DNA from: Lachnospiraceae bacterium C1.1 | GTDB lineage: Bacteria; Bacillota; Clostridia; Lachnospirales; Lachnospiraceae | Assembly: GCA_030434875.1 (NCBI GenBank) | Contig: JAUISW010000001.1 | Location: 3,982,001-4,046,000 of the forward strand | Length of the DNA: 64,000 nucleotides | Direction: 5' to 3' | Shown here: positions 20,174 to 48,787 of the stretch, piece after piece | Position numbering within the stretch: the first letter of the stretch is position 1 | Layout: every line of letters starts with the position of its first letter | Translations under genes and position numbers: made by a program | Notes under the pieces: generated by a model | Told to the model about the DNA's origin: nothing | The model's database searches: none | Seen by the model: only the letters and a program-made list of their open reading frames with translations

Positions 20174-21982
20174 ATGGCAGAGTATTTACATCCGGGCGTA
20201 TATACCGAAGAATACGATTCCGGTCCGGTACCGATGCAGGGGGTGAGCACTAGTACGGCAGGCTTCATTGGTTTGGCGGAGCGTGGTCCTGTCATTGGTG
20301 CACCACAGTTTGTAACCAGTTTTGCTGATTACAAGAGGATTTACGGCAGCTATCTCAGTGATACAAAATATGGGGATGCAAGATATCTTCCATATGCTGT
20401 TGAGCAGTTCTTTGTAAACGGTGGCTCAAGGGCATATATCATGAGGGTTGCGCCTGATGATGCAAAAGCTTCATCCGGAGCACTCGGATGTCTTAATATT
20501 GAAGCTGCAAGCCCCGGTGAGTGGGGAGACAGGCTGGTCGTTACTGCTGTACCTTCATCAAAGGCCAGAACACAGGTTTACAGCGTAAGCGGCTCAGAGC
20601 TTACAGTAAAGCATCCTGACGGATTTAATCCGGGAGACGTTGTAGAGCTTTTCGACGGAAAATCAAGGGCATATTCGACAGTCAAGAGCGTAATAGATAA
20701 GACTGTTACTCTTGACAGCCCACCATCACTTGATATAGCTGACAAGGCGCTTGTTACGCAGAAATATATGCGTACCATGGAAATTACCGTAACCGCAAAG
20801 CTTGATGATGCGGTTGAAACCTTTGAAAACGTGTGCCTGAATACCTTTGCGACAAACTATATCGGAATCAGGTCGGAAAAGTCAGATCTTGTACGTTTCA
20901 CCGTGAAACAGGGCGGAGCAGCTGCTGCACCGGCTCAGCCTCCGAAAGACAATAAAGACGCAAAGGATGGCAAGGACAAGGACGGAAAAGACAAGTCAGC
21001 ACCGGCACCTGCACCTGCTGCCGCAGCCGGCGGAACACAGACACCTTTCGCACAGATAGGTGGAAACGGAAGCTCCATATCCGTTACTCTTTCGGGCGGT
21101 TCGGAAGGCTCCGTAGGAAAGGTTACGGCTGATGTTTATGTAGGTACTGACAATGGACCCGGAAAACGTACAGGACTTCAGGCATTTATAGAAAACAGCA
21201 ATGTTTCCATAATGGCGATCCCCGGCGTGACCGATCAGACCGTACAGTCATCGCTCATTGCTTTCTGTGAGAACAGATCGAGCTGCTTTGCGATACTGGA
21301 TATTCCGATTGATAAAAAGAAGGTAGATGAGATCGCACAGTTCCGTGATGCATACGATACTACCTATGCCGCAATCTATCATCCATGGCTGCAGATGCTC
21401 GATCCGCTCCTTAAGCGCACGGAGTTCTTCCCGCCGTCAGGAGCGATGGCAGGCATTTATGCCCGTGTTGATGGTGACAGGGGCGTTCATAAGGCACCTG
21501 CAAATGAGACAGTCTCAGGATGCACAGGCCTGTCATGCAGCTACAATGATGCAGAGCAGGATATACTGAATCCTATAGGAGTTAACCTTGTACGTGCATT
21601 TACAGGAAGAGGAATACGCGTATGGGGCGCAAGGACCTTAAGCTCCAATGGACTCTGGAAATATATCAATGTCAGACGTCTTTTCATCTATGTAGAGCAG
21701 TCGATCAAGACAAATACAAACTGGGTAGTATTTGAGCCTAATGCAGAAGTGCTCTGGACAAGAGTCCGCGGCACTATCGAATCATTCCTTGCAACATGCT
21801 GGAGAGATGGAGCATTGGCAGGTACATCTCCGGATCAGGCTTATTTTGTTGAATGTGGACCTACGACAATGACGCAGGATGACATAGACAATGGAAGACT
21901 CATATGTAATATCGGAATCGCACCTGTAAAACCGGCTGAATTCGTAATCTTCCGCATTACGCAGAAGACGGCAACAAGCTGA
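20174..21982 (+). CDS. Contractile tail sheath protein
   Basis: A 602-residue protein that starts MAEYLHPGVYTEEYDSG, the hallmark start of phage and eCIS sheath proteins (Afp2-4/Pvc2-4 type). The C-terminal part has the conserved ISVWGARTLSS-like region (RVWGARTLSSNGLWKYINVRRL) and EPNAEVLW, which form the sheath core fold. Residues 247-290 are a low-complexity Ala/Pro/Lys/Asp insert, probably an exposed loop on the outside of the sheath. The protein forms the contracting cylinder around the tube. There is a single sheath gene here, whereas Serratia and Photorhabdus systems carry several. It is 66 bases upstream of the tube gene. Confidence 0.96.
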   Translation: MAEYLHPGVYTEEYDSGPVPMQGVSTSTAGFIGLAERGPVIGAPQFVTSFADYKRIYGSYLSDTKYGDARYLPYAVEQFFVNGGSRAYIMRVAPDDAKASSGALGCLNIEAASPGEWGDRLVVTAVPSSKARTQVYSVSGSELTVKHPDGFNPGDVVELFDGKSRAYSTVKSVIDKTVTLDSPPSLDIADKALVTQKYMRTMEITVTAKLDDAVETFENVCLNTFATNYIGIRSEKSDLVRFTVKQGGAAAAPAQPPKDNKDAKDGKDKDGKDKSAPAPAPAAAAGGTQTPFAQIGGNGSSISVTLSGGSEGSVGKVTADVYVGTDNGPGKRTGLQAFIENSNVSIMAIPGVTDQTVQSSLIAFCENRSSCFAILDIPIDKKKVDEIAQFRDAYDTTYAAIYHPWLQMLDPLLKRTEFFPPSGAMAGIYARVDGDRGVHKAPANETVSGCTGLSCSYNDAEQDILNPIGVNLVRAFTGRGIRVWGARTLSSNGLWKYINVRRLFIYVEQSIKTNTNWVVFEPNAEVLWTRVRGTIESFLATCWRDGALAGTSPDQAYFVECGPTTMTQDDIDNGRLICNIGIAPVKPAEFVIFRITQKTATS

Positions 21983-22048: not shown

Positions 22049-22540
22049 ATGGCTATTAACTACCCATATAGAGTGTTCCGGTACCAGGTTGTGATAGACG
22101 GAATCAACAGGGCCAGTTTTTCGGAGGTTTCCGGAATGAATCTGGCAACCGCAGCGATCGAGTACCGTGAAGGTGATGATTTAAGAAATACCCCGAGAAA
22201 ACTTCCGGGGCTTACAACTTTTGGTAATGTCACGCTCCGCTGGGGCATTGCCGAGGACGTTGAATTCCTTGAGTGGATACACTCAGTAGCACCTGATAAT
22301 TCCGCAGGTCCTACAGGAATCACAAGGCACAATATTACCATTTCACTGTTTACAGATGCGGGTGAGCCGTCAGGACCGTCCTGGACACTCATCAATGCAT
22401 GGCCGGTCAGCTACACTATACCTGATCTTTCAGGTCTTGGAGGAGAGGTAGCTATCCAGTCTATCGAGATCTGCCATGAAGGAATCTGGACAACAACAGG
22501 TACTTCACCGGCACCTGCAGGAACACCTTCGGAGATTTAA
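22049..22540 (+). CDS. Main inner tube protein (Afp1/Pvc1 type)
   Basis: A 163-residue phage T4 gp19-like tube protein. It shows the typical opening NYPYRVFRYQVVIDGINRASFSEVSGM, followed by the strand pattern and a WPVSYTIPDLSGLGGEVAIQSIEICHEG end. Its monomers stack as hexamers to form the inner tube pushed through target envelopes. GGAAGTGAGGG precedes the ATG. It lies next to the sheath and is followed by a strong hairpin (22546-22582) that may hold its mRNA level above that of the downstream genes. Two further tube-like genes follow at 23168 and 23669. Confidence 0.95.
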   Translation: MAINYPYRVFRYQVVIDGINRASFSEVSGMNLATAAIEYREGDDLRNTPRKLPGLTTFGNVTLRWGIAEDVEFLEWIHSVAPDNSAGPTGITRHNITISLFTDAGEPSGPSWTLINAWPVSYTIPDLSGLGGEVAIQSIEICHEGIWTTTGTSPAPAGTPSEI

Positions 22541-22610: not shown

Positions 22611-22979
22611 ATGCAGACTGAGTTTGAGTTTATGCTTCCAAAGGGCTATGTGGATGCATCGGGGGAAATCCACAGGCAGGGGAAAATGAGACTTGCAACA
22701 GCGGCAGATGAGATACTGCCTTTAAGGGATCCGCGTGTTCAGGCGAATTCCTCATATCTGACGATAGTGCTCTTATCGAGAGTCATAACACAGCTGGGAA
22801 CTCTTCCTGTTATATCAAATCAGGTCATCGAGAAGCTGTTTACCATGGATCTGGCATATCTGCAGGATTTTTACCAGAGAATCAATATGAAAGAAATACC
22901 ATCATATACTGTAACATGCCCGGATTGTGGTAAAAAATTCGAGGTACCGTTGGATTTTTTATTGAATCAGGGCTTGTAA
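22611..22979 (+). CDS. Tail assembly protein with zinc-ribbon end, frameshift donor
   Basis: The 122-residue zero-frame product resembles the conserved eCIS tail-assembly protein (FEFMLPKGYVDASG, LSRVITQLG). It ends in a zinc-knuckle-like CPDCGKKFEVP. In phages, the gene between tube and tape measure makes a tail-assembly chaperone in two forms by -1 frameshifting (gpG/gpGT of lambda, E/E' of P2). This gene is in exactly that place. Near its end the codons TTT TTA follow a T, giving the slippery heptamer T_TTT_TTA at 22955-22961. Shifting back one base leads straight into the DUF6760-like frame ending at 23155, a product of 181 residues. GGAGAGG lies before the ATG. Confidence 0.85.
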   Translation: MQTEFEFMLPKGYVDASGEIHRQGKMRLATAADEILPLRDPRVQANSSYLTIVLLSRVITQLGTLPVISNQVIEKLFTMDLAYLQDFYQRINMKEIPSYTVTCPDCGKKFEVPLDFLLNQGL

Positions 22980-23000
22980 GCTATCCACAGGACAGGCTCT
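22941..23000 (+). promoter_or_regulatory. Predicted -1 programmed ribosomal frameshift signal
   Basis: Three elements sit at canonical spacing. A Shine-Dalgarno-like GAGGT (22941-22945) ends 9 bases before the heptamer T_TTT_TTA (22955-22961), which is in the correct phase for simultaneous slippage. After a 7-base spacer, 22969-22977 can pair with 22992-23000 to form a 9-bp stem (two G-U pairs) with a 14-base loop. The zero-frame stop TAA is at 22977-22979, inside the structure. The -1 frame is open from the heptamer to TGA 23153-23155. Confidence 0.8.
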
Positions 23001-23155
23001 ATAAGGAAATGGCATTTCTTGCTTATTATCTTCACTGGTCACAGGATGATCTCATGAACATGGATCACAGGGAACGCAGACGGTGGTGCAGTGAGATATC
23101 TTCAATAAACAGGAAGCTGAGTGGAGATCAGAATAATACTTTTGAGTTTAAATGA
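22961..23155 (+). CDS. DUF6760-like C-terminal extension, reached by -1 frameshift
   Basis: In the -1 frame relative to the assembly gene, 64 codons read ...SYPQDRLYKEMAFLAYYLHW, then SQDDLMNMDHRERRRWCSEI and a short polar end. This closely matches a small conserved eCIS protein family (DUF6760 as I recall it: RLYEE-AF-AYHFHW...HRERRRW). No ATG, GTG or TTG exists in this frame upstream of the conserved YPQDRLY part after the last in-frame stop. The only ATG (23009) would cut off that part and has no properly spaced ribosome site. Expression as a frameshift fusion is therefore the simplest reading. The coordinates give the extension from the slip point, not an independent gene. Confidence 0.78.
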   Translation: MESGLVSYPQDRLYKEMAFLAYYLHWSQDDLMNMDHRERRRWCSEISSINRKLSGDQNNTFEFK

Positions 23156-23167
23156 CGGTGACGTTTT

Positions 23168-23659
23168 ATGGCAGATAAATTATATACGTCTTTCCGCTTT
23201 CAGGTAACAATGAGCGGGGAGGGATATGTTAAAGACGGGGAGACTGCGAGTTCGGATGCGGCATTCGCGGAGTGCTCCGGCATAAAGGTGATAAGCCATG
23301 TCATAAAGATGCGGAGCGGTTCTGATGAAAGAGGGGTACAGGGCATTATTCCTGCCACTGTTGAATACAGCAATCTGACCCTGACTAAAGGAGCCTCTTC
23401 AAGCAACAGGTTTCTTAACTGGGTATTTGAATGTCTTCCTTCATTTGAGAAGGGACCTGCAAATCCGGTGCGAAGGACGGTCAGGATAACCGTGCTTGAT
23501 GAACTGCAGAAACCCGGGATAATATGGAGCCTTTATGGGGCATATCCGGTTTCCTATACGCTTGGAGACCTGAATGCACAGAACAATTCAGTGTTGCTGG
23601 AATCTGTGGAATTTGCCTACAGTGGTCTCGGAAGAGAAGAGCCACCGGCAGGAAGCTGA
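23168..23659 (+). CDS. Second tube-like protein (gp19 family)
   Basis: A 163-residue protein with the tube fold pattern: LYTSFRFQVTMSGEG at the start, AFAECSGIKVISHVIKMRSGSD, and GAYPVSYTLGDLNAQNNSVLLESVEFAYSGL at the end. It is clearly diverged from the main tube protein. In Afp/PVC systems an Afp5/Pvc5-like tube paralogue forms the layer linking the tube to the baseplate, which is a likely role here. It begins 12 bases after the stop of the frameshift extension. Confidence 0.88.
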   Translation: MADKLYTSFRFQVTMSGEGYVKDGETASSDAAFAECSGIKVISHVIKMRSGSDERGVQGIIPATVEYSNLTLTKGASSSNRFLNWVFECLPSFEKGPANPVRRTVRITVLDELQKPGIIWSLYGAYPVSYTLGDLNAQNNSVLLESVEFAYSGLGREEPPAGS

Positions 23660-23668
23660 GGCTGAATA

Positions 23669-24106
23669 ATGAAAGATCAACAGGAAATGGAAAAATATGT
23701 GTCAGGCGCATATTTTGAAGTGAAAATCGGGGGCATAAGCGGTCTCAGCGGAAAGTTCACATCGGTCAGCGGACTTGGGATGACAATGTCATATGAAACG
23801 TATTTTGAAGGCGGTTCAATGGCACCGCATTTCCTTCTGGGGAATGCAGTTCCGCAGCAGCTTATCCTCGAGCAGGGAACGGTAACTGAAAAAGACGGCT
23901 TTTCAAAATGGATAAAAGAGGCAAACAGCGGGATAAGCCTGCCGACAAGCGGAGATATAACGCTTAAGGATGCGGCCGGAAAGACTATGAGGATCTGGCA
24001 TATAAATGACGCAGTGCTTGTAAGCTATACAGGACCCGAATTAAACAGTAATTCACCGCAGCTTGCGGTAAGCAGGATAGTCCTGATGTATGGAGGATGC
24101 ACATGA
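23669..24106 (+). CDS. Third tube-like protein (gp19 family)
   Basis: A 145-residue tube-family protein: VSGAYFEVKIGGISGLSG, SVSGLGMTMSYETYFEGG, and NDAVLVSYTGPELNSNSPQLAVSRIVLMYGG. It is the most divergent of the three tube paralogues and shorter. Its job may be to start the tube on the hub. The last bases overlap the start of the next gene as ATGA. Having three paralogues implies ring-by-ring specialisation of the tube base. Confidence 0.86.
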   Translation: MKDQQEMEKYVSGAYFEVKIGGISGLSGKFTSVSGLGMTMSYETYFEGGSMAPHFLLGNAVPQQLILEQGTVTEKDGFSKWIKEANSGISLPTSGDITLKDAAGKTMRIWHINDAVLVSYTGPELNSNSPQLAVSRIVLMYGGCT

Positions 24107-27100
24107 GGAATGATGGTTCTATTGCATTGACAAAATTAAATATGTCAGTCATAGATTCATCTGCGATGATCTCATCCGAGGCACTTTTATGCGCTTCCTT
24201 TGCCCAGAACATCATTGATAAGGAAAGAAATGAAGTTTTTGCGGCACCATTCACTGACCTTGATTTTCTGGAGGAAGAAAACGGAGAACCGGAACCGCTT
24301 CCTAAGGCAAAACAGGTCAATCTGAACTATGACCTGACATTTAAGATGGTACTGGCACATCTGGAGGCCATAGAGAAAGAGTCAGGCAGGAAAAAAAATA
24401 ATGAAAAGAAGGAAGTCGAGAGAGTCTTTGAGAAAGAAAGGAGACTTCTTGAAAGAAGCCTTAAGATACTGGAAGGACATTCGAGATTTAATAGCTCTCC
24501 CGTCATAAAAAATTACAGGGAATACCTGACGGTTAAGGAGAGGATCTTAAGGGAAAGCAGTAAAGGAAAATCTCATCAGCCGGACAGTTCCGGCGGAACA
24601 AAGATAAATACTGTTTCTAAGGAAATAAATACAGATCTTTACAGGCTGATCGAAAATGAGACGGAGATCAGAAGTCTTTCCAACGAACTACTGGACAGGA
24701 ATAATACGATAAAGAACATTGATAGAAAAAAATCTGTTTTTGACAGAGTAAACAGGATCATTAATGACAGGGAAAGAATAAATTTTATAAACAGGATAGC
24801 CGATAATGATCCCCGGAGCCGAAGGCAGCCGGAAGAGACAGCCAAAAGCTTGAAGAGAATGCTTGAAAAGCAGAGAAGGGAGATCGGAAGCTTAAAGAAG
24901 ATTCTCGTGGAGACCGGGGGATATGACATAAATACCTTTTCGTCCGGAGGCGATCCATACACTAGCGCTGATATCGATGACCTGAGGGCAGACGGCGGAC
25001 CTGAAACGCTAAATAAGGATACAGAACGGGTTCTCGACAGGCAGACAAGGGAGATCAGGCAATTAAAACAGATCATCACAGGTTCAGATATATATGAACC
25101 TCTAAGGATAAATTATAACAGGCCGGAAATACATGTTAACAGGCAGGGAATGTCTGTTAACAGACCGGGATTTGAGCCTGTTAAGCTGGATAATATCAAT
25201 ATTGATGCTGACAGGGAAACTGATAAAGCATCTGATACTGTATCGGATACGGCATCAGACAGAGCCGGTGATATGACCTACGACATGGAAGAAAAGGTCA
25301 GGACGGCAAGGCTTATAGGTGAAAAGCAGATAAGGGAGATAAGGGAATTAAAGACGATAATGCAGAATGCAGACCTTATGTCCCCGCTGAGGATAAGCTA
25401 TGGCGGTAAGAGCATCCGGACTGAAGCTGATAATGAGAGTTCGCCGGAAATGCCTCCTGACAGGCCTGCAAAAACGACTGTCAGGCTGACGGCTGACAGG
25501 ATAAAAACGCTGAGGGAAATAGTTCCTCAGGGCGGAACGAATCTGATAAATGCCATTGCCCAACAGCTGAAACGCTATGATATGGGCTTTGAGCCTGTGG
25601 ACTTCAAGGATGCTCCCACTATGGATGATGTCGCGGCTGACATGGACGAAAAGGTCAGGACGGCAAAGCTTATTGGCGAAAAGCAGATAAGGGAGATACG
25701 GGAATTAAAGACGATACTGGGGAATGCTGAAATTTTATCTCCCGCAAAATTAATTCATTCCGGTAGTAAGCAAAAGAAAACGGGAAGCCGTGAAGACTCG
25801 GAAGACAGGGTGATCAAGGCATCTGACAGGGAAAATAAGCTATCTGAAAAAACGTCTGAGAAAGCATCCGAAAAAGTATCTGAGAAAGCAGCTGAATTAG
25901 GGGAAAATCTCAGGATTGGCGATAATATAAGAAATGCCCTTAATCCGCTGACAAGGGAAATAGCCCTGATAAAGCTGCTTCGCGGGAATAACAGGTACGA
26001 ACTGAGGAATATAAGCAGGCTGGTTCATGATGAACTGCCGTGGAACAGCGTGGAAGCAACAGATGAAATAAGGGAAAAATATATCATAAGGCAGATGGGA
26101 TATACACCTGCCGACATAGAGGACCTGCTGACAGCCAATGATGAGAAGGATGAAGAGATTTCAAGGATCATGCAGACAAGTGCACGGCAGGAGAGAGATA
26201 TAAGGGAGCTGAAGAAAACCATTCAGGCTGATATCCCGAAGGAGAAGGCGGAAAAAGAAAAAAAAGAAGCAGAAGAGGAAAAGAAAAAGGAGAAAAGGGA
26301 GAAGGAAGAGGAAAAAAGGCAGGAAAAATTAGAACGCTCCATTGAGATAAATGAAACCGTGAGAAATGCGCTGGCACCAGTGATCAGGGAAATTGCGACT
26401 ATAAAGCTTTTGAGATCGGCCGGTGGACGGGGAATGACAAATATTTCAAAACTCGTAAGAAAGGCATTTCCGGATAGCAGCGTGGAGGCTGTCAATGAGA
26501 TAACGTCAAAATATATGCATGGGATAATGAGCTTTGAGCCGGAAAGATTGGAAAACATCCTTTTTGAGAAAAACGAAGGAGATGACCTTCCTGCAAGGCT
26601 GAGGGCTGATGAACTGCCGGGAGCGGTTCACGAAAGGGAGATAAGGGAACTGAAAAATATCCTGAAAAAAGACAGGGGAAAGAAGAACGACCATTTCTAT
26701 CCGACAGTCAATATGGAATATGGCAGTTCCTATCCGGCAATCATAAATGAGGCAGTGAAAAAACAGCTGTCCGGGATAAATCCCCTGGAAATGAAAAATG
26801 ACACGGCAGCGGAAAAATTTTTACGGGGAGAGGTTCAGGAAACTGTTGTCGAGGAGCCTGTAAAAGCCACTGAACTGATGAAAACAGTTCAGAAGAGGAT
26901 AACGGCTCCGCAGAACACAACATGGGTAAATCCGGCATTTGCCGGGAACAATAATACTCCTTTACAGGCTCCCTTCGGAAATTACGGTTACATGGATGAC
27001 CTGAATTTCAAGGAGAAAAATACCGGGGGCGGTAAGGAAAAAAATACGGGGCAGGCCAGACTTTCGGATGCTGATATAAGGCGTACAGCCGATAAGGTCT

Positions 27101-27156
27101 TTAAGCTTGTGGAAGAGAGAATGAGAAAAGAGAGACGCAGAATAGGAAGGATATAG
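24103..27156 (+). CDS. Long coiled-coil protein, candidate tape measure
   Basis: A 1017-residue, highly charged, almost all-helical protein. A motif with core (R/K)EIRELKxI recurs about six times, near nucleotides 24880, 25050, 25330, 25690, 26195 and 26635; two of the copies (near 25285 and 25640) are nearly identical over about 30 residues. A separate unit of about 70 residues is duplicated (near 25925-26130 and 26350-26565: NALxPxxREIxxIKLLR...SVEA). Position between the tube/assembly genes and the LysM protein is that of the tape measure in P2-like tails. If fully helical and extended at 1.5 angstrom per residue, it would span about 150 nm. No membrane segment is visible, which is unusual for phage tape measures. 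ATG 24103 is favoured: GGAGG ends 6 bases upstream. Confidence 0.62.
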   Translation: MRNDGSIALTKLNMSVIDSSAMISSEALLCASFAQNIIDKERNEVFAAPFTDLDFLEEENGEPEPLPKAKQVNLNYDLTFKMVLAHLEAIEKESGRKKNNEKKEVERVFEKERRLLERSLKILEGHSRFNSSPVIKNYREYLTVKERILRESSKGKSHQPDSSGGTKINTVSKEINTDLYRLIENETEIRSLSNELLDRNNTIKNIDRKKSVFDRVNRIINDRERINFINRIADNDPRSRRQPEETAKSLKRMLEKQRREIGSLKKILVETGGYDINTFSSGGDPYTSADIDDLRADGGPETLNKDTERVLDRQTREIRQLKQIITGSDIYEPLRINYNRPEIHVNRQGMSVNRPGFEPVKLDNINIDADRETDKASDTVSDTASDRAGDMTYDMEEKVRTARLIGEKQIREIRELKTIMQNADLMSPLRISYGGKSIRTEADNESSPEMPPDRPAKTTVRLTADRIKTLREIVPQGGTNLINAIAQQLKRYDMGFEPVDFKDAPTMDDVAADMDEKVRTAKLIGEKQIREIRELKTILGNAEILSPAKLIHSGSKQKKTGSREDSEDRVIKASDRENKLSEKTSEKASEKVSEKAAELGENLRIGDNIRNALNPLTREIALIKLLRGNNRYELRNISRLVHDELPWNSVEATDEIREKYIIRQMGYTPADIEDLLTANDEKDEEISRIMQTSARQERDIRELKKTIQADIPKEKAEKEKKEAEEEKKKEKREKEEEKRQEKLERSIEINETVRNALAPVIREIATIKLLRSAGGRGMTNISKLVRKAFPDSSVEAVNEITSKYMHGIMSFEPERLENILFEKNEGDDLPARLRADELPGAVHEREIRELKNILKKDRGKKNDHFYPTVNMEYGSSYPAIINEAVKKQLSGINPLEMKNDTAAEKFLRGEVQETVVEEPVKATELMKTVQKRITAPQNTTWVNPAFAGNNNTPLQAPFGNYGYMDDLNFKEKNTGGGKEKNTGQARLSDADIRRTADKVFKLVEERMRKERRRIGRI

Positions 27157-27160
27157 AGCC

Positions 27161-27886
27161 ATGTATGCCGGAGACGGAAACAATAATAAGAATTTTCCGT
27201 TAAGGAAAATGAAGATAACCAATATGGTAACCAAAAAAAGCTTTTTCGTCCTGTATAATCCTACGACTTATGCAGTCGGGAAGACAGCGGAATTCGGTGT
27301 CCAGCCGGCATTTGATTCGGAATCCCCGGGAATCCAGTTTTCACACGGTACTACGGAAACACTTTCGATGCAGCTTTTTTTCGATACATTTAGCACAGGT
27401 GCACTGAATGCTCCTTCGGTATCAGACGGGCTTAAGCTGGAAGGTACCAGGCGGATCAATGCACTGGCAAAATTTCTGGATGTAAGGCAGTTTACGGATA
27501 AGGTCTATTCGCTTATGCAGATAGAGGCGAGCGTGCACATTCCCCCACTGGTAAAGGTCGAGTGGTCAAGTCTCCAGTTTGAAGGGGTGCTGAAAAGCTG
27601 CAACGTCAATTTTACGAAGTTTACCGATCTGGGAATTCCCGTGAGGGCAACCATGGATGTTGTATTTTTCAGATTCAGCAAAATGGATGTCAAGGTCAAG
27701 AGCAATCCATTCGGCTCACCCGATACCGCAAAGTATAAGACAGTGGAAGAAGGGGAGTCACTTTGGAAATATGCTTCGGATGAATTTGGAGATCCGCTTA
27801 AATGGAGAGAGATAGCAAAGGCAAATAATATTTCCAATCCAAGACTTTTAAAGAGCGGGACAACGGTACAGATTCCCGCATTATAA
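27161..27886 (+). CDS. LysM tube-baseplate adaptor (Afp7/Pvc7-like)
   Basis: A 241-residue protein. The N-terminal 180 residues have the CIS-tube/gp53-like pattern: SFFVLYNPTTYAVGK, LSMQLFFDTFSTG, VKVEWSSLQFEGVLKSCNVNFTKF. Residues 190-241 are a LysM domain (EGESLWKYASDEFGDPLKWREIAKAN, then NPRLLKSGTTVQIP). Homologues join the tube to the baseplate hub. The gene starts 4 bases after the previous stop. It is followed by an inserted palindromic element. Confidence 0.93.
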   Translation: MYAGDGNNNKNFPLRKMKITNMVTKKSFFVLYNPTTYAVGKTAEFGVQPAFDSESPGIQFSHGTTETLSMQLFFDTFSTGALNAPSVSDGLKLEGTRRINALAKFLDVRQFTDKVYSLMQIEASVHIPPLVKVEWSSLQFEGVLKSCNVNFTKFTDLGIPVRATMDVVFFRFSKMDVKVKSNPFGSPDTAKYKTVEEGESLWKYASDEFGDPLKWREIAKANNISNPRLLKSGTTVQIPAL

Positions 27887-27891
27887 CAAGG

Positions 27892-28111
27892 CAATGTCAT
27901 GATGCCAGGGTCAAAAGGTCATACAGCAGTCATGCTTGCATGATCTGCTGCATGACTTGTTGACCCGCCCAATCATGAGGAAGTAGCTGTTTACGCAGTA
28001 AACAAGCGGATTCCGAATGATTGCAGCATTGCGTGAATTGCGAAGCAATGGAGCAATGCGTGGGCATCAGTTGGGGGCAAAATACCTTTTGACCCTGACA
28101 TCATGACATTG
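27892..28111. mobile_element. 220-bp MITE-like element between baseplate genes
   Basis: The two ends, 27892-27919 and 28084-28111, are inverted repeats of 28 bp with one mismatch. The inside holds further small palindromes (around 27925-27955 and 28010-28060) and no coding frame. It sits 5 bases after the stop of the LysM gene and 19 bases before the hub gene start. The right end lies immediately upstream of the GGGGGAAG ribosome site. It has the size and shape of a non-autonomous transposable element. No clear target duplication was found. Confidence 0.8.
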
Positions 28112-28130: not shown

Positions 28131-29252
28131 ATGGGGGGTTTTGATAAGAGTGGAAAATATGACGTATCAAGCCTTGTAAAGAAATATGAGTCCTATGCGG
28201 CACCGGCAGCGGAGATAAAGGTCGGTTCTTTTAAGATTGACGGAATGAAGATTCCCATAGTCTATATAAAAATCCAGCAGTCTGTCAGGAACAGGGCAGG
28301 AACAGCTGAATTTGCGATAAACGGACTTTATGATTATGAAAAAAGAGAATGGTCCGAGGGACTTTTGAAGAAAATAGATGTGGGAATGAAGGTTACCATA
28401 AGCTTGGGATATGTAAAATCGAAAAAAGAGGTTTTTTTCGGATATGTTGATTCCTACACTGTTTCATACAGGGCAAACCGCCAGCCGATGATAGTTGTCA
28501 CGGCACTTGATGGCATGGGGCTTCTGATGAGCGGAGGAACGAGAAAGGATTTTGGAAAAAAGAAGACCGGAGAGATAGTCAAGGAGCTTTTGGGTGAGTG
28601 CCAGAGCGCGGGACTTGTGAACAAGGTGACGATAGATAAGCTTCCGGAATTTAAGACCCAGCTCATGAAAGAGACAAACTGCAGCAGCTATGATTTCCTG
28701 AGTCAGATAGCTGAGATGAGCTTTGTCAATTTTTGCGTTATAGACGGGGAGCTTTTATTTTCAAACCTGATGAAAAATTCATCTCCACTGATGGAGCTGA
28801 CATTGGGAAAGGAGCTTCTCGAATATTCCAGGACCGTTGCCCTTAATAAAAATATGGTGGGCTCGGTAACGGTAATAAGCAATGGTACTCCTGACAAGAC
28901 TGAGGTAAGGGGAAAAGCCGATAAGCCGGGATCATTTGGAGAAAGCGGCAAGACAGGTGCCGAGAAGCTGAAAGGACTGTCAAAGACTTCAAGGCATATC
29001 AGGATGAATTTCCTTCAGTCGGAAAAAGAGTGCAAGGATATGGCACAGAATATCCTGAATTATATGAATATGGGCTTTTCGGGAGGTGAGTGCAGATGCA
29101 TAGGACTTCCGGAAATAATACCGGGAAGGTTTATCAAACTCAAGGGAATAGACTCAAAGTCCGATGGAAGTTATTTTATCAGTGAAGTAACACAGATACT
29201 TTCAGAGGATGGTTACAATACGGAGTTTGAACTAAGCGGATTAAGGGGATAA
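28131..29252 (+). CDS. Baseplate hub protein, gpD/VgrG-N-like (Afp8 N-terminal part)
   Basis: A 373-residue protein with the gp27/gpD-like hub pattern: IKIQQSVRNRAGTAEFAINGLYD, MKVTISLGYVKSKKEVFFGYVDSYTVSYRANRQPMIVVTALDG. The C-terminal end GRFIKLKGIDSKSDGSYFISEVTQILSEDGYNTEFEL fits the last barrel of the same fold. The hub receives the tube and carries the spike. Here the hub and spike are separate genes, whereas Afp8/VgrG combines both. GGGGGAAG precedes ATG 28131. Confidence 0.92.
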   Translation: MGGFDKSGKYDVSSLVKKYESYAAPAAEIKVGSFKIDGMKIPIVYIKIQQSVRNRAGTAEFAINGLYDYEKREWSEGLLKKIDVGMKVTISLGYVKSKKEVFFGYVDSYTVSYRANRQPMIVVTALDGMGLLMSGGTRKDFGKKKTGEIVKELLGECQSAGLVNKVTIDKLPEFKTQLMKETNCSSYDFLSQIAEMSFVNFCVIDGELLFSNLMKNSSPLMELTLGKELLEYSRTVALNKNMVGSVTVISNGTPDKTEVRGKADKPGSFGESGKTGAEKLKGLSKTSRHIRMNFLQSEKECKDMAQNILNYMNMGFSGGECRCIGLPEIIPGRFIKLKGIDSKSDGSYFISEVTQILSEDGYNTEFELSGLRG

Positions 29253-29255
29253 TAA

Positions 29256-30044
29256 ATGGCTTTTGATTTTTATGAAAATGAGTTAAGCCAGTTTGATGAC
29301 ATAGAAAGACGTTCAAAACGGTTAGGGCTGACCCTGGCAAAGGTTACAAACATAAAGGATCCCGAGAATAAGAACCGGGTTCTCTGCAAGCCTGTAACCG
29401 GAGAAAAAGAAAAGGATATACTGGAGATGGAGTGGGCTGATGTGATACAGCCTCTTTCGGGGAAAAATGCAGGAACATTCCTGCTGCCGTCTGTGGATGA
29501 TGTGGTCCTGATAGCGTATCTTGACGGAGATCCCCACTGTCCGTATGTGGTCGGTGGTGTATGGGATAAAAAGAGCACAGCACCGTACAAGATGAAAGAC
29601 GGTAAAAACAACGATTTCAGCTTTAAGACACCGGGAGGCTCCGAGCTTCATTTTTCAGACCAGAAGGACAAGCAGAAAATAACCCTTTCCACTCCAAAGG
29701 GAACTGAGATCTGTCTGGATGATGAAAATGAAAAGCTCACAGTTACCGATAAAAAGAAAAAAAATACCATAACGATAAATATAAAAAAAGGCGAAATCGA
29801 GATAAAGGCTGAGAAGAAGCTTACACTTGCTGCCGGGGATACATCGCTCGTAATGGAATCTTCGGGAAAGGCAACACTCAAGGGAAAGGGAGCCGTATCG
29901 ATAGAGGGCAGCAGCATCAAGGAAAATGCAAAGAGCAGCATGGAGATAAAGGGAGCCAGCACCAAGGTGGAAGCTTCCGGAAAGCTTACACTGAAGGGCT
30001 CGATGGCTGACCTGAAGGGACCTGCGGGAGTAAATATAAACTGA
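29256..30044 (+). CDS. Spike/baseplate protein, gpV-like with beta-helix
   Basis: A 262-residue protein. Residues 20-110 form the OB-fold of gpV/gp5 (LAKVTNIKDPENKNRVLCKP, WADVIQPLSGKNAGTFLLPSVDDVVLIAYLDGDPHCPYVVGGVW). From about 125 on it has short repeats of hydrophobic-polar strands rich in Lys, Thr and Gly, which suit a trimeric beta-helix spike. A PAAR-like tip encoded at 46279 probably caps it. The start is 3 bases after the stop of the hub gene. Confidence 0.93.
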   Translation: MAFDFYENELSQFDDIERRSKRLGLTLAKVTNIKDPENKNRVLCKPVTGEKEKDILEMEWADVIQPLSGKNAGTFLLPSVDDVVLIAYLDGDPHCPYVVGGVWDKKSTAPYKMKDGKNNDFSFKTPGGSELHFSDQKDKQKITLSTPKGTEICLDDENEKLTVTDKKKKNTITINIKKGEIEIKAEKKLTLAAGDTSLVMESSGKATLKGKGAVSIEGSSIKENAKSSMEIKGASTKVEASGKLTLKGSMADLKGPAGVNIN

Positions 30045-30054
30045 GGATAAAGAA

Positions 30055-30462
30055 ATGCAGAATGCCAAGAATTTTTTGGGAAGCGGATGGAAGTTTCCTA
30101 TCCAGCTGGATCCCAGGACCGGTAAGATAGCAGTTTCAACTCTTGAGGAAAATATTGAAGAGTCAATAGGGATAATCCTTTCTACCTATAGGGGAGAGAG
30201 GGTCATGAGAGCTGATTTCGGGACAAACATACCTGACTATGTATTTTCTCCCGTGAATTACACGGAGAAGGAGAGCATAGCATATGAATTAAACCAGCAG
30301 CTGCTGATAGATGAGCCGAGGATAAGGGACATAGAAGTTGAATGCAGGGATGGCAGTATCGATGGCGGACTTGAGGTAAGCGTCAGCTATACGGTAAGGA
30401 CGACTAATAACCGCTATAACAAAGTTTATCCTTTTTATAAGGAAGGTCAGGATGACAGATGA
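30055..30462 (+). CDS. Baseplate wedge protein gp25/gpW family (Afp9-like)
   Basis: A 135-residue protein matching gp25-like lysozyme-fold wedge proteins: WKFPIQLDPRTGKIAVSTLEENIEESIGIILSTYRGERVMRADFGTNIPDYVF and a C-terminal EPRIRDIEVE, the EPR core motif that anchors the first sheath ring. It ends with an ATGA overlap with the next gene. Confidence 0.95.
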   Translation: MQNAKNFLGSGWKFPIQLDPRTGKIAVSTLEENIEESIGIILSTYRGERVMRADFGTNIPDYVFSPVNYTEKESIAYELNQQLLIDEPRIRDIEVECRDGSIDGGLEVSVSYTVRTTNNRYNKVYPFYKEGQDDR

Positions 30463-41760: not shown

Positions 41761-44700
41761 ATGTTCGAGAATTTATTGGGAAGGATAATTGCATCACTGG
41801 GCGTAGTAATAAGGACATTCAGGGCATTTTTCCTGCGTTTCCTTACAAGTATCACATCCAGGGTAAGGAGCATGGTGAGCATTACGCGCCATGCTTCCAA
41901 GATTGGACCGAAGGTTCTTGATGCGGCGGCATCAACCGGAAAAAAACCTTCTAAGAGAGAAGATTATGTTGAAACGGGAAATCTCCTTATTTCAAAATCA
42001 TTTCTCATAACCGTTGCCATAGGACTGGTTATAGCCATCATACTGGCTGTAACGGTCGTATGGCCGTGGATAGTCAGCCATTTCCTCACAAGGCATATGT
42101 GGGAACAGGATAATCTCGTAGGAGCATATAACGGCAAGGTCGTGCTTTATTATGATAAGGAGAAAAAGAACCCCAAATTCAGGGGAAAGCTGGAAAAGGG
42201 GATAAGACAGGGAGCCGGGATCACGTATGACGAAAACAATATGGAGGTCTTTAACGGAGTTTATCTTGACGGCGAGTATGAGGGCAAGGGCAAGCTCTTC
42301 AAAGACGGCGTTCCTGTTTATAACGGCACATTTAAGGCAGGTGTATATGATGGAGAGGGAACCATTTATGATGATAACGGCATGATCCTTTATGAGGGAG
42401 GACTTGCAGACGGAGTATATGAAGGGGAAGGTTCTCTTTATGAGATGGGAGAGCTTATCTATGAGGGGAGTTTTTCAAAGGGAAAATACAGTGGACACGG
42501 AATAGAGTATAAGAGGGGAATAAAGGTTTACGACGGGAAATTTGAGGAAGGTCTCTACGAAGGACGTGGAAGGCTTTTCGATGATGGAAACATGGTCTAT
42601 GACGGGGAGTTTTCCATGGGAAAAAAGTCCGGTCAGGGCATAGAATACGAGAAGAAAAAGATTAAATATAAAGGTGACTTTGAAGACGATCTCTATAACG
42701 GAAACGGTATAGCTTACAATAAAGACGGAACAATAGCATTTAAGGGGGAATTTGTTGACGGATATTATTCGGGGGAAGGAGTTTTAACATTAGATGATGG
42801 TGAGATAGTCAAGGGGAACTTTGACCATGGAACCGTTGTTGGCGATGCCAACTGCTTTAAGGATGATAAATTATGGTATGAAGGCAGCCTGACTGACTAT
42901 ATTCCGGATGGAAACGGAAAGATCTTTAATAACGGGGTAATGATATATAACGGTCCGGTGACACAGGGAACCATTAACGGCTACGCACTTACCGGTCTTA
43001 CACTGGAAGATATCGTTGATGCTTTTCAGAAAAAGGGCAGGAGGAAAATATTGGAAGACGGCTTCATGTATTATTATCCAAAGCTTGGAGCAAACGTGTT
43101 CTTTTCCTTTGCAACAGCAGAAGATGAGCCAAGGGTGAGTAAATTCTGTCTTTCGGGAACCGGATCAAAATCAGATGCCGACCTGATGATATGGAAGAAG
43201 GTAAGCGATTTTAAGAAATATATAAAAAAACATCAGGATATATATGGTGAAATGAAAGAAAGCACCGGATATGCGGTCAATCCAGTGAAGGATGAGAAGG
43301 AATACTATGCTTCATTTAAGGGGGACAGCTTTAAGATAAGCTTCTGGTGTAAGGATAAAAACAGCAGGATAAATACATATGAATGGGAAGCGGTAGAAGA
43401 AGCGGAAAAAACGGATGATGAAGCAGGCGAAGGAGAAGAGTCGGTAACAGATTCCGCTGAGGCAGCGCAGGACAAGATGAATGACCTCCTGGAAATGATC
43501 GGGCTTGAAGCACCGGGAGCTGCTGACAAAGATGCAGGGGCAGATGCCGGAGCCGCCGGAGGAGCCGGAGGAACAGATGCCGGAGCATCCGGAGGAGCTG
43601 ATGCCGGGGCAGCCGGTGGAGCAGGTGCCGGGGCAGCCGGTGGAGCAGGTGCCGGAGCAGCCGGTGGAGCAGATGCCGGAGCAGCCGGTGGAGCAGGCGC
43701 CGGAGCTGCAGCGGGTACAGCAGCAGCCGGTGGAGCAGCAGGTGCAGGAGCTGCAGCAGGTACAGCAGCCGCCGCAGGAGCAAATGCAACAGCCGGAGCG
43801 GCAACAGCAGCTGCGTCCTCAGGGGCAGGCGAAGTGACCACGGCAGCCGCCACGGCCGCGTCCGCAGGCGCATCTGCGGCTGTACAGACAACGCCGGCAA
43901 AGAAAAGTGATTACTATGGAACAGAGGATCCCGGTAAAGTTATAAAAAAGGCCAAAAAGAAGGACAGAAATACTGTAATAAAAAATATGATCCTTTATTT
44001 CAATGCCGCTGAAAGAGTCGATGCCGCAAAGCAGAAGAGTGAGATGATCGAGAAATCAATACAAAAGGCCAATATTGATGAAGCTCTGGGAGAGGATACG
44101 ACTGACAGGGTAAAGGAGCTTAAAAAAGAGGCAAATGCATCACAGGCAGACCTGACTCTCGCAACCTCTGAAATGGCGAAATATGCATCGGAGATATCGG
44201 TCCTTACAGGTGGAGACAATGGGACGTCAGCTGATATGTCAAAGGTTGCGGTTTTTTTTGACGTATCAAAAATAGATCCCGAAAAGCTTTCACAGGCTGC
44301 CGTACAGAATGCACTGACAAAAAATGAAGAAGAACATGAGGCAGCCATGGCAGCTTACAAGGATGCAGTCAAAAAAAATGCAAAGAAGCTGGAAAAGGCA
44401 TTTGAAGATTCCGGAATGGACGAGAGGATAGTCATTGACGACATAGACTATGAACTTGGAGAAGAGCATGTAAGGACGAGCATCCTGTACAATGAATTAA
44501 AAGAAGAAATAGAAGATCTTCTGGAACAGCTTTTTGAGATTGAAAAGCCTGAGAATTCTGAGATAAACGATCAGGAGATATATAAGCTTCTGCAGACACA
44601 GATGATAGAGCTGCAGCTTTCGGGAGAAACTGTCAAGTCATCTTTAAGTGATTACTCTGATGCGATAGAAAGGCAGAATGAGATAGAGAAAAAAGTCAAA

Positions 44701-44883
44701 ACAGGCAGAATGGACGAGGAAAAACTGGATGATGCAAAGATGGAGGTAATGGAGGCGAGACAGAGTCTGTACTCCAATCTGTCATCATTCACGGTGATCG
44801 CTTCTGAAATGAATGACGTGTCAGGAGGCTATCTTTCAAAAAGCAACGGCTGGATGAAAGACTCCTTTGAAGGTGAGGAATAA
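41761..44883 (+). CDS. Membrane-anchored MORN-repeat protein with Ala/Gly-rich linker and coiled coil
   Basis: A 1040-residue protein. An amphipathic basic N-terminus (about 1-60) is followed by a membrane helix at about 78-103. Residues 123-412 hold around a dozen MORN repeats (YEGxGxLFxDGxxVYNGxF type). A globular segment follows to about 530. Residues 583-705 are a low-complexity Ala/Gly tract with the unit GGAGAGAA, and the last 310 residues are charged coiled coil. MORN arrays bind lipids or proteins and make rigid rods. Topology predicts the MORN part on the far side of the membrane. I infer a trans-envelope scaffold or docking structure for the injection particle. The gene abuts the next one directly (stop ends 44883, ATG 44884). 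Confidence 0.78.
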   Translation: MFENLLGRIIASLGVVIRTFRAFFLRFLTSITSRVRSMVSITRHASKIGPKVLDAAASTGKKPSKREDYVETGNLLISKSFLITVAIGLVIAIILAVTVVWPWIVSHFLTRHMWEQDNLVGAYNGKVVLYYDKEKKNPKFRGKLEKGIRQGAGITYDENNMEVFNGVYLDGEYEGKGKLFKDGVPVYNGTFKAGVYDGEGTIYDDNGMILYEGGLADGVYEGEGSLYEMGELIYEGSFSKGKYSGHGIEYKRGIKVYDGKFEEGLYEGRGRLFDDGNMVYDGEFSMGKKSGQGIEYEKKKIKYKGDFEDDLYNGNGIAYNKDGTIAFKGEFVDGYYSGEGVLTLDDGEIVKGNFDHGTVVGDANCFKDDKLWYEGSLTDYIPDGNGKIFNNGVMIYNGPVTQGTINGYALTGLTLEDIVDAFQKKGRRKILEDGFMYYYPKLGANVFFSFATAEDEPRVSKFCLSGTGSKSDADLMIWKKVSDFKKYIKKHQDIYGEMKESTGYAVNPVKDEKEYYASFKGDSFKISFWCKDKNSRINTYEWEAVEEAEKTDDEAGEGEESVTDSAEAAQDKMNDLLEMIGLEAPGAADKDAGADAGAAGGAGGTDAGASGGADAGAAGGAGAGAAGGAGAGAAGGADAGAAGGAGAGAAAGTAAAGGAAGAGAAAGTAAAAGANATAGAATAAASSGAGEVTTAAATAASAGASAAVQTTPAKKSDYYGTEDPGKVIKKAKKKDRNTVIKNMILYFNAAERVDAAKQKSEMIEKSIQKANIDEALGEDTTDRVKELKKEANASQADLTLATSEMAKYASEISVLTGGDNGTSADMSKVAVFFDVSKIDPEKLSQAAVQNALTKNEEEHEAAMAAYKDAVKKNAKKLEKAFEDSGMDERIVIDDIDYELGEEHVRTSILYNELKEEIEDLLEQLFEIEKPENSEINDQEIYKLLQTQMIELQLSGETVKSSLSDYSDAIERQNEIEKKVKTGRMDEEKLDDAKMEVMEARQSLYSNLSSFTVIASEMNDVSGGYLSKSNGWMKDSFEGEE

Positions 44884-46645: not shown

Positions 46646-48787
46646 ATGGATCTTTTAGAGCTTGAGATTGATGACGAGGATATCCGTATAGATAAAGTTG
46701 ATGAGGCTTATGCAGATCAGGAAGAGTTTCTTCACGATATCGCAGCCGAAATGGATCACCGTCTATACCTCTATTATAAATATCATCAGTGGGTCGGCCC
46801 GAAAAATGACATGAAAAACATGCTCGGGCTTGTCATAACAAGACACGAGTTTGAGCATAATCTTTCAAAGGCTTCTGAAGAAAGGCTGGAAGAAAAGTGT
46901 GATTCTGAGGAAAAAGCAGAGCTTAAGCTTTACAGGGACGTTGTCGAAAACCGTATCGGACTGACTGACAGTGAAGCATTTCCGGCAGTGAAGCTTGTAA
47001 AGCGGTTCGCACTCGATTATCAGGAAAGAGCGGCGGTATTTTTAAGCTTTTTTGCGGAAAATTCTGATAAATACAGAAAGATCATCGCTTATCTTCAGGA
47101 TGATGTCTCAAAGGGGATGCCGGGGATATCATTGATATCAGATCTGTTTGGTGACGAAGTTGATATAGCCTCCATGAGAAGGAAATTCATAGAACGTTCC
47201 CCTTTCTTAAACCTTTTTTCAAAAGAAAAACTCCAGAAGGGAACGCTCGGACTAAAGAACGAGGTACTGTTTTTCCTTAACGGCAGTGAGGAGACCCGGA
47301 ACGGTTTTAAACTTATAAAGGCCGATAAAAGTAAAAAGCTCCTTATAAGACAGGATATCGGAAGAAGGCTGGATGCGGTATTTGAAACTGAGGGAACGGC
47401 TGTGTTTCTTTCAGGGAGAGACGGGATAGGGCGCAGTTTTATGGCTGAAGCAGTGGCAGCGGCTCATGACAGGGACTGCCTCCTGGCTGACCTGACCTAT
47501 TCAAGATCCAAGCCGGAAATGATCGAAGAGGCGGATACATTAAGCCGTCTTTTTGACGCAGTCCTCCTGATAAAGGGAACAGAAGAAAAGACAGATGGAG
47601 AAACAGAAGCGCCAAAAAGGGAAGTGGCGGAAGCCATTGAAAAGCTGGAGCCGTACAGGACGCCTCTGTTTATCATCTCAGAAAAAGTCCTTCACCTTCA
47701 TCCTGCTTTATCTGCAATAAGTATTGATCTGGAGGATACAGATGTAGATGAGAGGATGATCCTGTTTGAACATTACATAAAAGGCGTGGAGCTCGCAGAT
47801 GAGGTTTCCATTGAGGAAACAGCGGTTAAATTCCATTTTACGCCTTTACAGATAAAAGGGGCGTGTGACAGACTGCGCGGAATCTACAGTATAGAGCAGA
47901 GACCCCTGACAGCGGATACTGTAAGCGAATGCTGTTACGGGGAAGTGGTCACAAGGCTCGAAAGGCTTGCAAGGAAGGTAAGGGGAAAATACACATGGGA
48001 TGATATCGTCATTCCGGATGAGATAAAAAGACTGGTGCGGCAGGCGATCGCACATGTGCGTTTCCATCATAAGGTTTACAGCGAATGGGGATTCAATAAA
48101 AAGCTGACCTATGGAACAGGTCTTTCAGTCCTTTTTGCCGGGGTACCGGGAACCGGAAAAACCATGTGTGCGCAGATAATAGCCCATGATCTGAAGATGG
48201 AGATTTTTAAGGTCAATCTGTCCCAGATCGTGAGCAAGTATATAGGTGAAACTGAAAAGAACCTGCAGGAAATATTTGCAGAGGCGAAAAATTCAAACTG
48301 TATCCTGTTCTTTGACGAATGTGATTCGCTTTTTGGAAAGAGAACCAATGAAGTCAAGGATGCAAATGATAAAAATGCAAATGTGGAAAGTGCCTATCTT
48401 TTACAGCAGATAGAGGAGTATGACGGGGTATGTATCCTTGCGACAAATCTGCTGCAGAACATTGATGAGGCATTTTTAAGGCGGATCACGTTTATAGTCC
48501 ATTTTCCTTTCCCTGATGCAGATGCAAGGAAAGAAATATACAGAAGGACTTTTCCTGCCGGAATGGAATTGTCAGATGATATAGACTGGGATTTCATATC
48601 ACGGACTTTTGAGCTTTCGGGAGGATATATAAAAAACATAGTCTTATCGGCGGCTTTTCTTGCAGCAGAGGAAGGCAGCATAGTTTCGATGAAGCATATG
48701 GTAAATGCTGCAGTGGATGAGATGAAAAAGAACGGCATTGTAGTAGTGAGGGAGCTGCTGCAGGAATATGCCGATCTGCTGGAATGA
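46646..48787 (+). CDS. AAA+ ATPase (Afp15/Pvc15-like)
   Basis: A 713-residue protein. The C-terminal AAA+ module has Walker A GVPGTGKT near residue 498, Walker B ILFFDECD near 552, a sensor ATNLLQNIDEAFLRR with the arginine finger, and RRITFIVHFPFPD. A second, degenerate module is visible around residue 256 (GRDGIGRS, without the Walker lysine and threonine). The first 200 residues are helical and specific to this family. Homologues are needed for particle assembly or cargo loading and are encoded just before the payload genes. The gene follows the PAAR gene by 4 bases. Confidence 0.94.
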   Translation: MDLLELEIDDEDIRIDKVDEAYADQEEFLHDIAAEMDHRLYLYYKYHQWVGPKNDMKNMLGLVITRHEFEHNLSKASEERLEEKCDSEEKAELKLYRDVVENRIGLTDSEAFPAVKLVKRFALDYQERAAVFLSFFAENSDKYRKIIAYLQDDVSKGMPGISLISDLFGDEVDIASMRRKFIERSPFLNLFSKEKLQKGTLGLKNEVLFFLNGSEETRNGFKLIKADKSKKLLIRQDIGRRLDAVFETEGTAVFLSGRDGIGRSFMAEAVAAAHDRDCLLADLTYSRSKPEMIEEADTLSRLFDAVLLIKGTEEKTDGETEAPKREVAEAIEKLEPYRTPLFIISEKVLHLHPALSAISIDLEDTDVDERMILFEHYIKGVELADEVSIEETAVKFHFTPLQIKGACDRLRGIYSIEQRPLTADTVSECCYGEVVTRLERLARKVRGKYTWDDIVIPDEIKRLVRQAIAHVRFHHKVYSEWGFNKKLTYGTGLSVLFAGVPGTGKTMCAQIIAHDLKMEIFKVNLSQIVSKYIGETEKNLQEIFAEAKNSNCILFFDECDSLFGKRTNEVKDANDKNANVESAYLLQQIEEYDGVCILATNLLQNIDEAFLRRITFIVHFPFPDADARKEIYRRTFPAGMELSDDIDWDFISRTFELSGGYIKNIVLSAAFLAAEEGSIVSMKHMVNAAVDEMKKNGIVVVRELLQEYADLLE

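Follow-up and report, generated by a model that had tools for sequence, protein, structure and literature searches.

The locus and its injection-system genes

The window, a stretch of 64,000 nucleotides from Lachnospiraceae bacterium C1.1 in which all positions given here are counted, carries a short gene (ORF1) that overlaps, in the -1 frame, a sequence encoding a DUF6760 domain. Both lie among genes of an eCIS-type injection system:

20174..21982, + strand: tail sheath (PF04984 3e-22, PF17482 1e-18)
22049..22540, + strand: gp19-type tube protein, upstream of ORF1 (PF06841 2.2e-37)
22611..22979, + strand: ORF1, probable tail assembly chaperone of 122 aa with a C-terminal CxxC zinc-ribbon-like stretch (PHROG_508; fold of a homologue)
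22942..22946, + strand: SD-like GAGGT, possible stimulator (sequence; 8 bases between GAGGT and the heptamer)
22955..22961, + strand: slippery heptamer T_TTT_TTA, in phase with ORF1 (sequence; junction motif kept in relatives)
22961..23155, + strand: predicted -1 frame extension read after slippage, ending at the TGA at 23153-23155
22969..23000, + strand: predicted 9-bp stem-loop, 7 nt after the heptamer (-10.4 kcal/mol)
22982..23134, + strand: DUF6760 domain (PF20546 E 1.3e-15), matching the phage P2 GpE' domain by profile
23168..23659, + strand: gp19-type tube protein, downstream of ORF1/DUF6760 (PF06841 2.3e-28)
23669..24106, + strand: third gp19-type tube protein (PF06841 5.3e-20)
24097..27156, + strand: charged, repeat-rich protein of 1019 aa, upstream of the baseplate genes (ORF list; position)
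27161..27886, + strand: CIS_tube/LysM protein (PF19266 1.6e-25)
at 28131: hub-like protein; at 29256: OB spike (family searches of the window)
at 30055: gp25; at 33405: baseplate J (family searches of the window)
46646-48787: AAA ATPase, from a Walker A motif read by eye, with no family search behind it

The sheath, gp19 tubes, CIS_tube protein, spike, gp25, baseplate J and AAA ATPase by which an eCIS is recognized are thus present in a single locus. ORF1 sits between the first two tube genes of the window, flanked by tube genes on both sides, and a gp19-type gene adjoins 189 of 193 loci of this kind. The 1019-aa protein contains repeated units of the type EKQIREIRELK; family searches gave it no convincing match (a TrlF-like match had an E-value of 5e-4, far below that family's cut-off), and its position suggests that it may occupy the slot expected of a tape-measure-like protein.

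Two other elements were observed in this region. A Clostridiales-1 RNA (RF01699, 125.8 bits) lies at 27900-28069, between the CIS_tube/LysM and hub genes. It looks like a dispersed element, since it is multi-copy in these genomes, with at least 18 matches in that of the window and at least 64 in one relative from the genus; the eCIS stretches of loci L031 and L032 had no RF01699 match. At 41761-44883, near the eCIS genes, a 1040-aa protein shows by eye a membrane helix, MORN-like repeats and long Ala-Gly-rich runs, and has no NCBIfam match.

An open -1 frame at the end of ORF1

A sequence-only reading of the window had proposed that a -1 ribosomal frameshift joins ORF1 to the DUF6760 domain. 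Its slippery heptamer was confirmed in the phase of ORF1, and its description of an intact domain devoid of a usable start of its own also held. The open stretch of the -1 frame spans 22934-23155; no ATG, GTG or TTG occurs in it before the ATG at 23009, which already belongs to the DUF6760 core. Upstream of the core, the window's -1 frame thus contains neither a conventional start, which in homologues the earlier reading had named as a refutation, nor the start codon expected of a translationally coupled pair. The predicted fusion has 181 aa against 122 aa for ORF1 alone, as previously calculated; the proposed junction peptide, FLLIESGLVS, had one residue too many and should be corrected to PLDFLIESGLVS, with the predicted fusion reading PLDFLIESGLVSYPQ across the join and the region of the predicted junction peptide lying around PLDFLIESGLVSYPQDR.

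TTTTTTA occurs 15 times on the + strand of the window and 37 times on the - strand, so that the heptamer alone would mean little. As far as sequence can tell, the weight of the evidence is in the place and phase that the heptamer keeps across relatives.

ORF1 and DUF6760 resemble parts of phage tail chaperones

ORF1 matches the PHROG_508 family of tail assembly chaperones (E 1.3e-7), and PF10109 is weakly seen in its relatives. The N-domain in the structural model of a homologue (P0108, 56% identical to ORF1) aligns with YqbN (3KLU) and the HK97 chaperone (2OB9). When the homologue's fold was compared with the PDB by Foldseek alone, no match was significant, and a PDB sequence search with the ORF1 and DUF6760 profiles retrieved nothing relevant. 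Against viral models, Foldseek gave significant matches to an uncharacterised protein of Bacillus phage BCD7 (1.8e-8) and to a T4-like hub assembly protein (3.6e-7); the rows named gp26 or gp51 were not themselves significant. The PHROG match and the modelled fold of the homologue support that ORF1 resembles a phage tail assembly chaperone. T4-like phages themselves reportedly use a mechanism other than frameshifting, going by the title of a 2022 work by Vladimirov.

The extension also points to phages. By hhalign, DUF6760 matched the P2 E' family (PF06528) with a probability of 95.5 and an E-value of 1.5e-8 over 48 columns, as compared with E-values of 0.22-0.32 for three unrelated control pairings. 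A Pfam scan of the window's -1 frame lists DUF6760 alone, not PF06528. DUF6760 itself had no match in 50,697 phage records at E 0.01 with one 55-aa query. The P2-type E' relatives were taken from genomes, the matches to P2 E' in viral contigs being 80 loci identical to the query. These profile and fold comparisons give concrete form to the likeness to P2 that had been proposed for the locus.

The predicted arrangement resembles that of P2, where the short gene for E and E+E' lies behind those for the sheath and the adjoining tail protein and ahead of that for the tape measure, a -1 shift takes place on T_TTT_TTG, and the extension carries the PF06528 domain, which DUF6760 matches by profile comparison. 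However, the P2 product serves a phage tail, P2 E is devoid of the zinc-ribbon stretch, and the profiles of ORF1 and P2 E did not match each other when compared. The lambda tail is non-contractile, unlike an eCIS. Lambda G/GT would share with our locus the principle of a chaperone of two lengths made by -1 frameshifting; according to excerpts of PMC5009743, the shift yields chaperones of two sizes, short and long, in a ratio that is important.

The overlap and the slip motif are conserved in bacteria and archaea

We obtained matches in 34 of 99 genomes from the window's genus and nearby taxa, the window's own genome included. Beyond these near relatives, DUF6760 loci were collected without using the slip motif. 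In the window's phylum, 13 of 398 genomes matched, again with the window's own among them. Named genomes contributed the best 80 of 579 confirmed loci, a selection biased towards the query, and further loci came from three viral contigs and from three plasmids chosen from 34. Even phylum draws, each including its centre genome and named after the centre locus, matched 24 of 244 genomes around a cyanobacterium, 19 of 296 around a Streptomyces, 15 of 246 around an ANME-2 archaeon and 6 of 349 around a Methylococcales bacterium, where three of the six matched genomes were over the Pfam cut-off and three under it. Left out of the count of 194 loci are L045 (a copy of the window locus), L131 (phage P2) and L135-L140 (duplicate copies).

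An ORF1 match lies in reach in 188 of these 194 bacterial and archaeal loci, as counted with an ORF1 profile that was built from -1-class loci and may miss unlike arrangements; L033, L034, L178, L200, L201 and L202 have no usable ORF1/DUF6760 pair. DUF6760 overlaps ORF1 in the -1 frame in 185 of the 188, and an in-frame ORF1-DUF6760 fusion was found in none. The alignment with other loci that the sequence-only reading had called for gave an in-phase slippery motif in 177 of the 185 overlapping loci, under a definition (X_XXY_YYZ with any bases, or G_GGG_GAN) whose second pattern is no strict X_XXY_YYZ heptamer and joined the motif set after the loci were seen. Excerpts of PMC10885494 record GGGGGAA across about a thousand motifs in a phage training set consisting chiefly of tail assembly chaperones. 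In the window's genus and nearby taxa, all 32 two-part loci combine the -1 frame with an in-phase motif, either T_TTT_TTA or T_TTT_TTC, or A_AAT_TTT; the other two of the 34 lie at contig ends. Among loci with a sole motif across the whole collection, this was GGGGGAA in 55, AAATTTT in 26, GGGGGAG in 22, GGGGGGG in 20, GGGGGGA in 11, and TTTTTTA and TTTTTTG in eight each. The remaining motif loci hold two or more motifs. Seven archaeal loci have GGGAAAY, and one from the Pseudomonadota sample (L198) has G_GGA_AAG, the heptamer of lambda.

The same motif set occurred in 54 of 1007 twelve-codon windows from ORF1 bodies, as compared with 123 of 125 junctions; sorted by phase over the last 40 nt of ORF1, motifs were present in 123, 38 and 13 of the 125 loci. 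The 125 control-set loci form 35 single-linkage clusters at 70% identity and 74 at 80%. Because of this phylogenetic clustering, the number of independent lineages is well below that of the loci, though it is not small. The count over 188 loci and the control of 54 in 1007 rule out chance overlap, a pseudogene or a sequencing error as the source of the arrangement.

Codon choice around the slip site is also restricted. The 29 loci of the A_AAT_TTT class have CTA (21), GTA (five) or ATA (three) immediately ahead of the motif. Leu at this place is therefore always written CTA (21 of 21), a codon that the bodies of these ORF1 genes use for only 7 of their 329 Leu residues. Among the 121 loci of the G class, the codon giving the first G encodes 11 different residues; it ends in G because the motif definition requires so (third-base G in ORF1 bodies, 0.32). 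Judging from these alignments, the slip junction is constrained at the nucleotide level.

Three loci fall outside the -1 class. In L159, the ORF1 frame is broken upstream and GGGGGAG is still there, and in L180 the two parts are adjacent without overlap. In the third, L087 from a Brocadiaceae MAG, a short insertion separates the two parts, and the three-frame reading suggests that one and the same short stretch flanks it on both sides. L047, whose ORF1 carries an indel, was counted in the -1 class. PF20546 was found in one frame with ORF1 in six proteins (P0079, P0080, P0088, P0108, P0164 and P0171) among the 120 listed of 7977 matched. We considered these as proof of the fusion and did not count them as evidence, since one contig alone supplies five of the six and an error in a homopolymer would give the same picture.

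Several cyanobacterial loci (within L142-L165) have two tandem ORF1 paralogues. The slip site is on the copy nearer to DUF6760, which overlaps this domain and is the one that was scored; no separate DUF6760 accompanies the more distant copy. In a Cyanobacteriota sample of 170 genomes, 17 of the 18 with an ORF1 match also have DUF6760; at the 18th locus we looked for it and did not find it.

Possible stimulators of slippage

Both elements that the sequence-only reading had proposed as stimulators, the SD-like GAGGT and the 9-bp stem-loop, are present in the window, and their stimulatory role there is suggestive only. GAGGT overlaps conserved Glu-Val codons of ORF1 and is missing in L007 and L008, so that it is not decisive as a stimulator. 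Among Bacillota loci, 40 of 44 have Glu-(Val/Thr/Ile/Leu) near the ORF1 end, and this Glu is encoded by GAG in 37 of the 40 (within GAGGT in 33) as compared with 142 of 268 in ORF1 bodies, a codon preference suggestive of an SD-like signal.

Hairpins differ among motif classes. In the G-run class we found a recurrent downstream stem of the type GGCTACC-GGTAGCC, with a mean z of -2.28 against synonymous shuffles in 121 loci, 60% of which were below -2. Mean z-values were -1.17 for A3T4 (26 loci), -1.13 for GGGAAA (6), -0.84 for T6 (21) and -0.41 for other motifs (3). T6 is the window's own class and gives its hairpin weak support: the window stem has a z of -0.94, and the seven loci of group A range from -0.49 to -2.75. 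Covariation was scored against 500 shuffles. Among the 113 distinct sequences of the G class, pairing reaches 82.7% of the stem cells, where no shuffle exceeded 79.0%; two-sided changes number 49, as against at most 30 in a shuffle, and are spread over seven pairs, as against up to 8. L181 was excluded from the stem counts. Twenty sequences start differently and were put aside, a choice made by sequence after they had been seen; the remaining 93 pair at 91.7% (best shuffle, 89.2%) and have 40 changes (best, 22) in six pairs, a number of pairs not above the best shuffle (6). Partner slides gave 35-60% pairing, a comparison that favours the stem since this was read from the consensus of the tested sequences, and the 20 set aside pair at 88.0% in a shifted register. 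The predicted G-class hairpin is thus well supported by the synonymous test and fairly by covariation; for the hairpin in the window, a function is only possible. Excerpts of PMC3091744 report that hairpins are absent at P2 and P2-like frameshift sites.

Alternatives to ribosomal slippage

DUF6760 might instead be made as a separate small protein by translational coupling at an overlapping ATGA or GTGA, the slippery motifs being a by-product. In the PLSDB annotation of several plasmids, DUF6760 is a gene by itself. A possible start near the ORF1 stop exists in 50 of the 177 motif loci, chiefly GTG (26) or ATG (19) at position -1, and mostly overlaps that stop. This applies to 10 of the 11 motif loci of the Actinomycetota sample, for which coupling or mixed expression is therefore possible. 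Such a start is also found in seven of the eight motif-less loci, namely L118 and L127 from Brevibacillus, four of the Actinomycetota sample and one of the archaeal sample (near start versus motif absence, Fisher p 0.0012, with lineages that are not independent); L172 has neither a motif of the set nor a start codon. On this ground the sequences suggest that coupled initiation took the place of slippage in a few lineages, and coupling may well hold for these seven loci. However, in 127 of the 177 motif loci, the window included, the stretch that begins 30 bases ahead of the ORF1 stop and ends at the DUF6760 YP motif contains no ATG, GTG or TTG; in 108, such codons are absent from all of the open -1 frame as far as that motif. 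Moreover, the codon at the possible start place in the A_AAT_TTT class varies (ATA 15, ATG 11, TTA 2, TTG 1), and coupling leaves unexplained the fixed phase and the choice of CTA, ATA or GTA. As a general account of the family, we consider coupling improbable. In the Actinomycetota sample, L177, L179, L182 and L183 lack the slip motif and overlap DUF6760 by ATGA, apparently having switched from frameshifting to coupled initiation; the ORF1 C-terminus of L177 and L182 is different and longer.

ATT is a very rare start codon. The database gene call for the window's extension (the 64-aa P0001) seems to assume that it begins at the ATT at 22961; both P0001 and P0002 start with the residue at this place, and GAGGT lies upstream. 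This ATT nevertheless stands immediately behind the T run of the slippery heptamer, and the junctions of L008, of the G-run class and of the A_AAT_TTT class read differently there and still keep the frame, which makes such a start the least credible of the alternatives, one to which we give almost no weight. Slippage of the RNA polymerase, instead of the ribosome, could also make the fusion, and many loci do contain homopolymer runs (T6, G5 and longer). These are short in comparison with those listed for polymerase slippage in excerpts of PMC3711429 (T over 8, A over 7), A_AAT_TTT has no long run, the motif keeps the codon phase, and the G class has an RNA hairpin downstream; polymerase slippage thus appears very improbable, only slightly less so than the ATT start.

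Programmed frameshifting as the preferred reading

The conserved frame and motif, the startless extension of the window, the G-class hairpin and the family relations support frameshifting. Very probably, a programmed -1 ribosomal frameshift lets the locus produce the chaperone both alone and fused to DUF6760, in the manner of P2 E/E' and lambda G/GT. Most ribosomes would complete ORF1 and produce the 122-aa tail assembly chaperone; a minority would re-pair on T_TTT_TTA and go on in the -1 frame, yielding the 181-aa form with its P2 E'-like DUF6760. By analogy with the two phage systems, the chaperone part would attach to the tape-measure-like protein, to which the DUF6760 extension would bring tube subunits as the tube grows. 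This assembly role is drawn from lambda and P2 as described in excerpts of PMC5009743 and PMC3091744. We infer that slippage occurs, that the ratio of the two forms is important and that they have a role in assembly.

Frameshifted tail chaperones are of a known kind. In the open-licence literature, we found no description of a frameshift in an eCIS assembly gene, of its spread in bacteria and archaea, of the match between DUF6760 and P2 E', or of the conserved hairpin. By word search, "frameshift" is absent from the main text of two Streptomyces CIS papers and one eCIS survey.

Implications for eCIS evolution and assembly

The frameshift reading bears on the way in which an eCIS particle arrives at a tube of defined length and on the chaperones that it uses. 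It would give DUF6760 a predicted role and explain its poor annotation, with a gene call seemingly from ATT and, in several plasmids, no gene under the match in a table that is itself incomplete. The loci would also provide a rich natural collection of -1 frameshift sites to compare. If frameshifting is kept across bacterial phyla and archaea, machines that have left the phage context would still rely on the two-form chaperones of phages. We think it likely, if with clearly less confidence than the frameshift itself, that slip site, chaperone and P2 E'-like extension are one inherited module, kept by bacterial and archaeal eCISs since their split from phage tails, in which the slippery sequence was swapped (T6, A3T4, G-runs, GGGAAAY), a hairpin was often added and a few members switched to overlapping-start coupling. 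If so, DUF6760 would be an overlooked core part of this eCIS branch.
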